Shown here: one piece after another, positions 33,462 through 36,931 of the stretch
How positions within the stretch are numbered: the first letter of the stretch is position 1
Layout of the letters: each line of letters starts with the position of its first letter
NCBI GenBank assembly: GCA_027364735.1
Contig: DAHXOT010000043.1
Location: forward strand, 1-64,000
DNA from: Hydrotalea sp.
GTDB lineage: Bacteria > Bacteroidota > Bacteroidia > Chitinophagales > Chitinophagaceae
Length of the DNA: 64,000 nt
Reading direction: 5' to 3'
Position numbers and translations under genes: made by a program
The notes under the pieces: model-generated
Database searches by the model: none
The model's input: the letters and a program-made list of their open reading frames with translations, nothing else
What the model was told of the DNA's origin: nothing

Positions 33462-34097
33462 TTAAGCTTCTACAGCTTCATTTTCTGCAAATATTTTGGC
33501 AGCATTTTCAGTTAATACCAAAACATCTGCATTTACAATTTCATAAGTATTGATATCTGCCAATAAAGTGCTGTCAATGTTTGGAACATTGCGTGTACTT
33601 AAATACAAATTATCGTTATACTCAGGGATGATTAATAAAGCCTTTTTATCTGCAAGATGTAAGTTTTGCATTACACTTACAATTTCTTTGGTTTTAGGTG
33701 CAGCTAAACTTATATCTTCTATTACAAAAATTGCTGCATCTTTAGCTTTATAACTTAAAGCAGAAATTTTTGCCAAATCCTTTACTTTTCTATTTAACTT
33801 AAAATTGTAGCCATGTGGTTTAGGCCCAAAAACAGTACCACCACCTTTATATAAAGGGTTACGAATATTACCTTTACGAGAGCCTCCTGTACCTTTTTGT
33901 TTGTGTAACTTACGACTTGCCCCATGCACTTCGGCACGAGTTTTTACTTTATGCGTTCCTTGACGCCCAGCAGCTAAATATTGTTTTACAGCAAGATAAA
34001 TCACATGATCATTTGGTTCAATACCAAATATTTCTTGTGGCAATTCTACTGTTCTGCCGGTTTTTTCACCTTGTATATTTAAAACATCTACTTGCAT
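33462..34097 (-). CDS. rplD: 50S ribosomal protein L4
   Basis: This 211-residue L4 contacts 23S rRNA and the exit tunnel; in E. coli it also represses the S10 operon. The tunnel loop is GASRKLHKQKGTGGSRKGNI and GGGTVFGPKPHGYNFKLNRK, and the C-terminal part has NVPNIDSTLLADINTYEIVN. It lies 21 bases after rplC. It is a candidate regulator of the structured gap upstream of rplC (inference). Confidence 0.97.
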   Translation of the reverse strand: MQVDVLNIQGEKTGRTVELPQEIFGIEPNDHVIYLAVKQYLAAGRQGTHKVKTRAEVHGASRKLHKQKGTGGSRKGNIRNPLYKGGGTVFGPKPHGYNFKLNRKVKDLAKISALSYKAKDAAIFVIEDISLAAPKTKEIVSVMQNLHLADKKALLIIPEYNDNLYLSTRNVPNIDSTLLADINTYEIVNADVLVLTENAAKIFAENEAVEA

Positions 34098-34118: not shown

Positions 34119-34736
34119 TTACTTCTGGATTAATACTATTGAACCATTATGACCTGGTACAGAACCACTAATAAGAATATAGTTTTTTTCAGGAAAAATT
34201 TTTACAACTTTCAGTCCTTTCATTTTAACCCTATCTCCACCCATACGCCCGGCCATTCTCATTCCTTTGAAAACACGGCTTGCATCAGAAGAGTTACCGA
34301 TTGAACCAGGTGCTCTTTGACGATCGTGTTGTCCATGAGATTGAGCTCCAACACCAGAGAAACCATGACGTTTAACAACTCCCTGAAAACCTTTACCCTT
34401 GGTAGTTCCTATTACTTCAACTTTTTCTCCTTCAGAAAAAATATCAACAGTAATAGTTTCTCCTAAAGTTTTTTCTATAGAATAGTTGCGGAATTCTTTA
34501 ACGAATTTTTTTGGAGAAGTTTGTGCTTTAGCGAAGTGATTAATTTCAGCTTGAGTAGAATGTTTTTCTTTTTTATCGCTGAATGCTAATTGAAGTGCAC
34601 CGTAACCATCAGAGTCTTTTGTTTTAACCTGAGTTACTACATTTGGACCAGCTTCAATAATAGTTACTGCAGTTTGTTTACCATCTGCAGCAAATATGCT
34701 GGTCATACCAATTTTTTTACCAATTATACCTTTCAT
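34119..34736 (-). CDS. rplC: 50S ribosomal protein L3
   Basis: This 205-residue L3 is an early assembly protein near the peptidyl transferase centre. It starts [20 protein letters not shown] and contains [19 protein letters not shown] and [20 protein letters not shown]. Unlike its neighbours it is far (271 bases) from the preceding gene, rpsJ. A short hairpin ends only a few bases before its ATG. Confidence 0.98.
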
Positions 34737-35007
34737 CTTTTCGCGGTTTATGCCCGCTGAGGTTTAAAGGACATTACACAGATGAAGTGTAATTCAATCC
34801 TTGTTTGCTGACGACCTTTTCCGTTGTTTTCACTTACAAAATGAAATGGGAAGTACCGACAGTAAACAAACCTCGAAGGGCTTGTTTATATGTTTACTCA
34901 ATTTGTTAATTTGAGCAATTGATTTTATTTAGAGCTCTTTTTTCAACCACTGTATGTGATGATTGAGAGATAAATTATTTTTAAGAACTAATTTGCTTAA
35001 TGTTTAA
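34737..35007 (-). promoter_or_regulatory. candidate structured leader between rpsJ and rplC
   Basis: This 271-base gap is the longest in the S10-spc run and has no coding frame I can support. On the transcript strand several stems are visible. AAACAAGCC/GGTTTGTTT (plus coordinates 34879-34887 with 34864-34872) closes a CTTCGA loop. GTAAACA/TGTTTAC (34891-34897 with 34862-34868) overlaps and competes with it. ATTACAC/GTGTAAT is at 34773-34779 with 34787-34793. GCGG/CCGC (34743-34746 with 34754-34757) ends six bases before the rplC ATG. Competing stems next to a start codon suit an autoregulatory ribosomal-protein leader. It could instead hold a second promoter or a small RNA. Confidence 0.45.
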
Positions 35008-35313
35008 TTAAGCTTTAATTTCAACTTCCACTCCCGATGGCAAATCTAATTTGCTTAAAGCATCTACAGTTCTTGAAGAAGAAGTATAAATATCTAATAA
35101 TCGCTTATGCGTACACAATTGAAATTGTTCTCTACTTTTTTTATTCACATGTGGCGAACGAAGTACAGTAAAAATTCTTTTATGTGTTGGTAGAGGAATT
35201 GGACCTGTAACAACAGCGCCTGTACTACGAACGGTTTTTACAATTTTTTCAGCTGACTTGTCAACTAAATTGTGATCGTAAGACTGTAATTTTATTCTAA
35301 TTCTTTGAGACAT
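35008..35313 (-). CDS. rpsJ: 30S ribosomal protein S10
   Basis: This 101-residue S10 begins [20 protein letters not shown] and includes [20 protein letters not shown] and [20 protein letters not shown]. In E. coli it also acts as NusE in antitermination. It normally follows fusA or tuf closely; here a plus-strand gene separates it from fusA, and it has its own promoter box. Confidence 0.98.
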
Positions 35314-35339: not shown

Positions 35340-35351
35340 TTGCAAAGGTAA
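35340..35351 (-). promoter_or_regulatory. promoter of rpsJ and the S10-spc cluster
   Basis: On the minus strand TTACCTTTGCAA contains TAnnTTTG, and a TTG lies exactly 20 bases upstream of TACCTTTG, fitting the -33/-7 Bacteroidota promoter. It ends about 27 bases before the rpsJ ATG. Confidence 0.75.
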
Positions 35352-35533
35352 GGGGCTATACTTAAATGGGCAAGAAAAAGAAAAGAAATTTTTGAAAAAA
35401 CTCATTCATTTTTAAAATATTTCTCAAAAACCGGCTAAAACTCACACTAAAGCCATTCTTAGCATCGTTTTGAACAAAAAAATACAGGCATATCTATTTA
35501 CAAATAAGTATTTTTCCAAAGAAATAAAATATT

Positions 35534-36931
35534 GTGACATCATTAATAACGAATATTTACAGCAAAAGTCCGCTTATCATTCAAAATCTGCTAATTTCTG
35601 CATACGGCTATCACTGGCAGAAAAGACGATTTGGCGGAATTTTCCCATACGAGTATCATTGGGCTAAAGAACGAGAATTTTTTAGCAAAGCAGAATGGAA
35701 AGAATATCAAAATGCAGAGATGGAACAATTGTTACAACATGCCTATAAAAATGTGCCCTTTTATAAAGAAAAATTTACAAACCATGGCTTAACTGCTGCC
35801 GACCTGCAAAATATTGATATTGATCACCTTCATTTGTTACCCATTACTTTAAAAGATGAAGTGAGAAAATATGGAAAAACAAGTTTACTTTCTCTTAATA
35901 AAGATCCAAAAGGCAATTTTTTCTCCTCCAGCGGAAGTACAGGAACACCTGTAGAAATATATTACTCACACAAAATGCATCAAAAATGGTTTGCATTATA
36001 TGAGGCAAGGGTAAGAAATTGGGCTGGGGTAAACAAAAATATGTGGAGAGGAATGATTGGCGGAAGAAGAATAATTACCACTTCAAAAAATATTGCCCCT
36101 TTTTACAGGTATAATTTTTTTGAGAAACAAATTTATTTTTCAGCTTATCATATTGGTCCGGCTACAATTACAGACTACGCCAAAGCTTTTAAAAAATATC
36201 CTATCACTTATATGACAGGTTATGCAATGAGCAATTTCTTTTTAGCAAAATTATTCAACGAAAAAAATATTTCTATTCCTCCATTAAAAGCTATCATTAC
36301 TTCTAGTGAAAAACTTACTGATGAAATGAGAACAACCTTCTCAAAAGTGTATGGCTGTAAAACGTACGATTCGTGGAGTGGCATGGAATACTGTGGTTTA
36401 ATTTCGGAATGTGAACATGGAAGTTTACATATTAACCCCGACGTTGGCATTATTGAAGTATTAAATGATGCCATGCAGCCGGTTAAAGAAAATGAAATAG
36501 GCACTATTTATTGTACCGGATTTTTAAATTACGATCAGCCACTTATACGATATAAAATTGGAGATAGTATTATTTTAAGCAATACCAGCTGTACTTGTGG
36601 CAGAAGTATGCCCATTGTAAAAGAAATTATAGGAAGAACAGAAGATATTGTATATGGAAAAGATGGAAGACGGATGGTAAGATTTCATGGCATATTTGTC
36701 GGGTTGAATGCCATTAAAATGTCGCAAGTAATTCAAGAAAATATCGAAACAATTCTTATAAAAGTAGTAGTAGATGGTTTATTAAAAAGCAAAGACAAGG
36801 AATTGATTATTGCCAGAATAAAATCGCAATTAGGAGAAATAAATGTTCACATAGAAGAAGTTTCACATATTCCACTTTCTGCCAATGGAAAATTTAAAGC
36901 GGTAATTTCTACAATACAAACGCCTCACTAA
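35534..36931 (+). CDS. phenylacetate-CoA ligase/CapK-family adenylate-forming enzyme
   Basis: This 465-residue protein starts at a GTG (35534); no in-frame ATG precedes the conserved region. It has the nucleotide-binding signature SSSGSTGTPVEIYYS (about 134-148). DSWSGMEYCGLISECEHGSL follows, resembling the metal/aryl-binding region of the family, then GTIYCTGFLNYDQPLIRYKIGDS. The C-terminal lid domain has CTCGRSMPIVKEIIGRTEDI. PaaK activates phenylacetate, whereas CapK-like members sit in polysaccharide clusters, so the substrate is open. It lies alone on the plus strand between fusA and rpsJ, an unexpected place. Its stop codon is inside the terminator stem. Confidence 0.88.
   Translation: MTSLITNIYSKSPLIIQNLLISAYGYHWQKRRFGGIFPYEYHWAKEREFFSKAEWKEYQNAEMEQLLQHAYKNVPFYKEKFTNHGLTAADLQNIDIDHLHLLPITLKDEVRKYGKTSLLSLNKDPKGNFFSSSGSTGTPVEIYYSHKMHQKWFALYEARVRNWAGVNKNMWRGMIGGRRIITTSKNIAPFYRYNFFEKQIYFSAYHIGPATITDYAKAFKKYPITYMTGYAMSNFFLAKLFNEKNISIPPLKAIITSSEKLTDEMRTTFSKVYGCKTYDSWSGMEYCGLISECEHGSLHINPDVGIIEVLNDAMQPVKENEIGTIYCTGFLNYDQPLIRYKIGDSIILSNTSCTCGRSMPIVKEIIGRTEDIVYGKDGRRMVRFHGIFVGLNAIKMSQVIQENIETILIKVVVDGLLKSKDKELIIARIKSQLGEINVHIEEVSHIPLSANGKFKAVISTIQTPH

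Follow-up and report, generated by a model that had tools for sequence, protein, structure and literature searches.

A conserved RNA element of two modules between rpsJ and rplC in Chitinophagaceae, a candidate ribosomal protein leader

Why does a ribosomal protein operon of otherwise closely spaced genes keep a long gap after its rpsJ? We addressed this in a Hydrotalea genome of 2.77 Mb in 54 contigs, using a 64,000 nt stretch of one contig (the window; DAHXOT010000043.1, assembly GCA_027364735.1). Ranked by L3 sequence, its nearest relatives among named genomes belong to Chitinophagaceae, with Sediminibacterium at the top, in a collection from which very near records may be missing. S10, L3 and L4 are supported by Pfam matches (Table 1); names for the remaining genes in the cluster were assigned by us. 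On the minus strand, 271 nt separate the end of rpsJ (35008) from the start of rplC (34736). Between rpmC and rplC the cluster has eight other gaps, of 13-110 nt. Short spacing elsewhere in the cluster had already been described in the initial annotation, with a slightly different range (11-110 bases).

The gap had also been described as structured and non-coding, and it is. Its transcript strand folds at -57.3 kcal/mol (z = -3.71), with one of 200 shuffled sequences as good, and the opposite strand has a z of -2.20 (six of 200). All three forward frames contain stops. No intrinsic terminator was seen when the gap was searched for one.

Promoters in Bacteroidota follow the pattern TTG-N17-23-TAnnTTTG. 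Of 134 genomes, 122 have the pattern before rpsJ, against 3.0 in shuffled sequences; in the window it lies at 35343-35373. Within the gap it was found once in 142 genomes with 1.0 expected from shuffles, not above chance, and a promoter of the gap's own was dropped from consideration. As the pattern lies before rpsJ and not in the gap, the element appears to be intercistronic rather than a 5' leader. It is probably transcribed as part of the rpsJ mRNA, judging from these pattern matches.

Table 1. Features of the rpsJ-rplC region, in window coordinates.
Feature	Position	Strand	Basis or description
Bacteroidota-type promoter (TTG-N-TACCTTTG) upstream of rpsJ	35343..35373	-	Pattern match; ends ~30 nt before the rpsJ start
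rpsJ (S10 = NusE)	35008..35313	-	ORF and Pfam PF00338
boxA-like element AGTTCTTAA (M1)	34981..34989	-	AG[TC]TCTT in 107/142 gaps
M1 hairpin	34927..34975	-	Outer stem AUUU/AAAU, internal loop AU/CUCU, inner stem CUCU/AGAG
M2, large conserved domain (P1, P3, P4, P5; alternative P2)	34743..34890	-	Model R1 and covariation
P1 hairpin UAAACAAGCC / GGUUUGUUUA	34863..34890	-	97.8% of cells paired
P2 5' strand GAGGUUU	34868..34874	-	Overlaps P1 3' strand; duplex and conformer energies
P3 hairpin	34808..34862	-	Stem P3a (CUGUCG/CGUCAG), internal loop GUAC/AAGGU, stem P3b (UUCC/GGAA), tip
P4 hairpin	34767..34802	-	Stem AAGGA/UCCUU, internal loop round conserved UUGA, upper stem variable in sequence
P2 3' strand AAACCUC	34759..34765	-	Duplex and conformer energies
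P5 hairpin GCGG/CCGC (GCGGGCATAAACCGC)	34743..34757	-	Six nt before the rplC start codon
rplC (L3), first gene 3' of the element	34119..34736	-	ORF and Pfam PF00297
rplD (L4), likeliest ligand source	33462..34097	-	ORF and Pfam PF00573; ligand role by precedent

Two modules upstream of rplC

To place the gap among its relatives, we surveyed 147 Chitinophagaceae genomes. The gap DNA matched 94 of them (blastn, E <= 0.001), and a core of about 45 nt keeps 82-93% identity even where little else aligns. rplC was located in 143 genomes, and 142 gaps were read; one further locus, interrupted by a contig start, was left out. The gaps are 65-495 nt long, 103 being at least 200 nt and 39 being 65-188 nt. 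The element is folded and conserved in cis before rplC. It is composed of two modules, M1 and M2, with M2 lying between M1 and the rplC start.

The structure of M2 was set by hand, and pairs were counted on MAFFT alignments not fitted to that structure. For alignment A1 we took 74 of the 103 long gaps. The other 29 were left out as divergent (seven: L084, L105, L131, L136, L139, L144, L153), for a length above 200 nt (14) or by our choice (eight: L050, L054, L074, L085, L100, L104, L108, L157). All but L131, L136, L139, L144 and L153 later matched the M2 model R1. In A1, 88.2% of cells are paired (79.8 when shuffled), 23 of 37 pairs changed on both sides (14.6) with 285 such cells (87.7), and the covariation score is 0.312 (0.161). 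On none of the four counts did any of 500 shuffles do as well, and sliding the partners by one column lowers the score to 0.096-0.119. The initial annotation had suggested looking for covariation in relatives; the stems are conserved and do covary, M1 likewise scoring above every shuffle (see below).

Most of the structural evidence for M2 is supplied by P3a and P4. Both sides change in six of the seven P3a pairs, with variants such as CUGUUG/CAACAG, CCUUCA/UGAAGG and CUACUG/CAGUAG, and 95.4% of the cells are paired; the figure for P3b is 99.7%. The internal loop of P3 is near-invariant and its tip variable. In P4 the three lower pairs are always formed (100%), the two outermost in 70.3% of cells. 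The upper stem is 82.6% paired, and all seven of its pairs change on both sides. GUAC, AAAAGGU, GGAUUGA and UGUC vary little or not at all across the 74 gaps, as would be expected of a bound site, and M2 tip lengths vary freely. RNAalifold, run on the first alignment, recovered P3 only.

P1 corresponds to the AAACAAGCC/GGTTTGTTT stem with a CTTCGA loop of the initial annotation. It is nearly invariant, with one pair changing from A-U to U-A in five of the 74 sequences, and because it hardly varies it adds little covariation. P1 pairs GGUUUGUUU with AAACAAGCC. The same GGUUU can instead pair with an AAACC about 100 nt downstream to form P2 (GAGGTTT/AAACCTC), which would enclose P3 and P4 in a three-way junction. 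Cognate P2 duplexes, computed for 94 of the 96 M2-bearing sequences, average -8.5 kcal/mol against -7.0 for swapped, non-cognate pairs, a modest support for P2 that is partly phylogenetic and may be inflated by shared ancestry. Energies of the two conformers differ little: in the 81 of 96 sequences computed, P2 minus P1 has a mean of -0.46 kcal/mol (sd 2.04, range -5.2 to 5.4), with P2 the lower in 51. This makes P2 a better alternative to P1 than the GTAAACA/TGTTTAC stem that had been proposed as the competitor. That stem is in the sequence (34891-34897 with 34862-34868). Both of its halves are kept in only three of the 96 M2-bearing gaps, our own and those of two relatives, and we dropped it as a competing stem.

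P5, six bases away from the rplC ATG, is the GC hairpin noted before. In 74 of the 96 sequences the last 32 nt contain a hairpin of 4 bp or more (shuffles: mean 36.4, maximum 47). As aligned in A1, 49.8% of P5 cells pair, so either the register shifts or P5 is missing in some sequences.

M1, overlooked in the initial annotation yet more widespread than the part noted there, consists of a boxA-like element and a hairpin whose internal loop is AU/CKCU. In long gaps, our own among them, it precedes M2. In scans that demand pairing the hairpin was found in 128 of 142 gaps (97 of 103 long, 31 of 39 short) against 10.7 in shuffles. As these scans demand pairing, their pair tallies prove nothing, and it is the excess over shuffles and the alignment-based counts that do. 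For the latter, 61 long-gap sequences (A2) and 24 of another type (A3) were hand-picked from 136 anchored sequences before counting; one mis-anchored A2 row (L063) was kept. The covariation score is 0.462 in A2 (0.216 when shuffled) and 0.525 in A3 (0.264), with no shuffle as high in either. An excess is unclear for pairs changed on both sides in A2 (6 against 5.2, with 120 of 500 shuffles as high) and for further pair types in A3 (241 of 500 as high). In 30 of the 31 short gaps with M1, CKCU starts 18-28 nt before the rplC ATG, and 68 nt before it in the remaining one. Most gaps without M2 hold letters like AGTTCTTTAA and, shortly before the ATG, a hairpin such as GGCUAAUCCCG...CGGGCGCUUAGC.

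The boxA-like motif AG[TC]TCTT far exceeds its frequency in shuffles (mean 5.8 gaps, maximum 11), and mostly lies 40-55 nt before CKCU. Our own site meets the boxA core GYTCTT and departs from the γ-proteobacterial consensus GYTCTTTAANA at the third T of the run. Among the 107 motif-bearing gaps, 15 have AGTTCTTTAA. The rRNA leaders of the family depart from the γ-proteobacterial consensus too: AAGTTCTTTGAAAG is found in the rRNA leader of six of ten genomes. AAGTTCTT followed by TGAAAG lies 117-158 nt before 16S rRNA in six of the ten family genomes with a 16S match; the four without the motif are weak absences, as the 16S start was guessed where the pattern failed.

Distribution in Chitinophagaceae and beyond

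Model R1 detected M2 in 98 of the 142 family genomes at E < 1e-6. Of these, 74 form the seed of R1 and match by construction; L137 matches at 1.2e-5. The operon thus works without M2, as the module is missing from 43-44 of the 142. Searches with stricter filters, in which weak matches are lost, found R1 in 60 of 298 genomes of the order and eight of 296 of the phylum, every match inside Chitinophagaceae and always as a single copy. rplC starts at the 3' end of the match, within a few nt, in all 33 loci checked. R1 also matches 27 of 80 named loci, among them loci of Sediminibacterium, Hydrotalea, Flavihumibacter, Terrimonas, Gynurincola, Flavisolibacter, Paracnuella and Puia. It was found in none of three Chitinophaga loci, four Ferruginibacter loci or the 29 loci L258-L286 (59-66% L3 identity, taken as outside the family).

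M1 is more widespread than M2. In another family of the order (f8) all five gaps have the hairpin, 17-18 nt before the rplC ATG. Among 33 gaps from other families of the order one match was found, 200 nt away, and it is probably due to chance (0.34 expected in all); two more loci of the order had no rpsJ in reach. In the named loci M1 is present in 48 of 50 from the family set and in none of 22 outside it. From this distribution we infer that M2 arose later than M1.

Five family genomes (L131, L136, L139, L144 and L153) have long gaps of 216-249 nt with no M2. By scan M1 is present in all except L139, and by eye the five have another insert in common, starting GGGCGCTTGRCT.

Control of rplC and the candidate ligand

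The explanation we favor, and hold to be probable, is that the gap is an intercistronic ribosomal protein leader, or operator, gating rplC and the later genes, whichever ligand it binds. Its position, the conserved loops and, in short gaps, the closeness of M1 to the rplC start fit a translational operator. The initial annotation had read the gap as an autoregulatory leader with competing stems; a conserved, covarying element linked to rplC speaks for the leader, while the competing stem it named falls away. With conservation, covariation, the link to rplC, and neither a promoter pattern above chance nor a terminator detected in the gap, it is likely, as that annotation proposed, that a leader-like element follows rpsJ, unlike the leader of E. 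coli, which precedes it.

Under the favored explanation a single transcript begun before rpsJ would take in rpsJ, the element, rplC, rplD and the genes beyond, as the promoter pattern suggests. When ribosomal proteins are in excess of rRNA, a product of the operon, most likely L4, would bind the conserved internal loops. The bound protein could shift the balance between P1 and P2 or lock P5 near the rplC start. Initiation at rplC and the coupled downstream genes would then fall, and S10, translated before the element, would escape. NusB-S10 on the boxA-like element may in addition couple this control to transcription elongation. A defined, covarying element after rpsJ is a concrete target, and leads one to expect S10 to be uncoupled from the operon's other genes. 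Its M1 is a short hairpin suited to binding assays, and the element raises the question of how a second domain is added to a leader.

L4 is our tentative choice of ligand, a possibility drawn by analogy. Eckert and Weinberg hold that, where a leader of the same operon has an established ligand in another lineage, this ligand is the best guess (PMC7247131), and L4 regulates the operon in E. coli. The S10 leader there acts by L4-dependent attenuation and translational control (PMC10931766). Like it, the present element is structured, non-coding and placed in the same operon before genes that include rplD. Unlike it, the element does not precede rpsJ, and folding the E. coli leader and inspecting it by eye established no common fold. 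The same leader could instead respond to L3 or another protein of the operon, for example L2, L22, L23 or S3, a less likely part of the favored explanation. rplC directly follows every copy checked (33/33), as would suit L3; however, the ligand of a multi-gene operon in E. coli or B. subtilis is mostly not encoded by the next gene (PMC7247131).

It is also conceivable, if unlikely, that the gap is mainly a Nus-factor site, at which NusB and S10 (NusE) bind boxA and control elongation into the operon, the hairpins being accessory. NusB with S10 binds boxA, and the boxA-like motif just downstream of the S10 gene is suggestive of such binding. The motif is in 107 of 142 gaps and its core recurs in the rRNA leaders of six of ten genomes. 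NusE autoregulation through boxA has been proposed for some γ-proteobacteria, and in three γ-proteobacterial genera rpsJ itself has a predicted boxA (PMC5725501). However, AG[TC]TCTT is missing from 35 of the 142 gaps and the looser G[CT]TCTT[TA] from 21, all five f8 gaps with the M1 hairpin are without G[CT]TCTT, our own site departs from the γ-proteobacterial consensus, and the conserved loops of M1 and M2 would be left unexplained. The element resembles the boxA/NusB-NusE sites of rRNA leaders and suhB in its GTTCTT core and in adjoining the NusE gene. It differs from those described in PMC5725501 in lying between rpsJ and rplC, in being joined to a conserved hairpin and in its consensus tail.

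A combination of the two is more doubtful still: NusB-S10 would read the boxA-like element and L4 would read M1 and a bistable M2. If true, this two-input RNA would compare the supply of both subunits and gate the remaining S10-spc genes, and M2 would be a riboregulator particular to the family, set between the target and an operator of wider distribution.

That the spacer is a processing or stability element, cut by an endonuclease so that the mRNAs of rpsJ and of rplC and downstream genes decay separately, we regard as improbable. Hairpins between cistrons and freely varying tip lengths would suit it; the conserved internal loops, and M1 near the rplC start in short gaps, point instead to protein binding at initiation. 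Least of all do we expect a separate small RNA, a promoter region or an unannotated short gene, the finding that the initial annotation had set against a leader: a forward frame is open over more than 60% of 35 of the 103 long gaps when no start codon is required, but the promoter pattern is at chance level, no terminator was seen, our own forward frames all have stops, and the length changes and compensatory changes fit an RNA and not a protein.

The favored leader was compared with known families, including by the Rfam search that the initial annotation had recommended. At the gathering score, Rfam 15 has no match in the window or in eight further loci, and with E permitted up to 10 the matches are weak and far below the cut-offs. 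No description of the element was found among the matches listed from open-access papers. We consider it a new candidate for a known type of leader, set apart by its location downstream of rpsJ, its bipartite build and the boxA-like element; the GUCCY-hairpin motif of Bacteroidetes and Proteobacteria, which has no Rfam number (PMC2864571), lies outside this comparison. The Bacteroidota leaders reported by Eckert and Weinberg in 2020 (L13, S4, S15, S16) are of the same kind and from the same phylum; none among the entries matched in that paper regulates rplC in Bacteroidota, and the L4 entry among them is from Archaeoglobi (PMC7247131). The S10 motif of Peptostreptococcaceae is likewise a candidate leader for the S10 operon, in another phylum and, unlike the present element, in the rpsJ 5' UTR (PMC11109978).

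The element has the conserved, covarying structure of ribosomal protein leaders and their place in cis before a ribosomal protein gene (33/33), apparently outside the 5' UTR. Some known E. coli operators are intercistronic too, for example those of S7 between rpsL and rpsG and of S8 at rplE. Like these, the site lies inside an operon and spares the upstream gene; the S7 and S8 operators belong to other operons and other proteins. We know of no boxA-like element or two-module build in them. S8 retroregulation appears as a cited reference in PMC2864571.

Mimicry of rRNA was set aside. To the eye GUAC...AAAAGG and GGAAAAGGUC...GGGAUUGA resemble 23S domain I, where an L4/L24 site lies. Run over E. 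coli 23S and the rRNA loci of two relatives, R1 yielded 12 weak matches, all of them in the relatives. The best two (E 0.026 and 0.23) are at 4584-4742 of L160, beyond the end of the 23S match. Two others fall within the 23S of the two relatives, at a shared position (E 3.7 and 4.5); matches inside rRNA genes are chance-like. A scan for the AU/CKCU loop found it in neither E. coli 23S nor seven relatives' rRNA loci, and at one place in E. coli 16S.

Further observations in the window and in related genomes

Between fusA and rpsJ the window encodes a 465-amino-acid ORF on the opposite strand, 35534-36931 (+), with no Pfam family at E 0.001. Its SSGSTGTP resembles an AMP-binding motif. In the genomes G113 and G140 the bacterial 23S model matches the 23S rRNA in pieces with breaks, which would fit a gene interrupted by inserts or divergent stretches.

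Outside the family, seven loci (L259, L260, L261, L264, L281, L284 and L286) have no rpsJ upstream of rplC within the 1500 nt fetched, and the gene order before rplC may differ there. They are from five Pedobacter, one Sphingobacterium and one Sphingobacteriales MAG. By eye, the gap of Flavobacterium alvei (L277) contains a Bacteroidota promoter core, TACTTTTG, and its rplC may have its own transcription start, unlike in Chitinophagaceae. In Maribacter and other Flavobacteriaceae (L273, L278, L285) a different common sequence fills the rpsJ-rplC gap, again by eye. It includes ACATGTCC.GAGCTGCGTGC.AGGGAAAAACGGTAA in two of the three, with a looser version in L278, so a separate leader may occupy this position in Flavobacteriaceae. 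Lewinella (L266) and Phaeodactylibacter (L268), with gaps of 149 and 185 nt, have AGATACTAGG in common by eye, perhaps another leader type.
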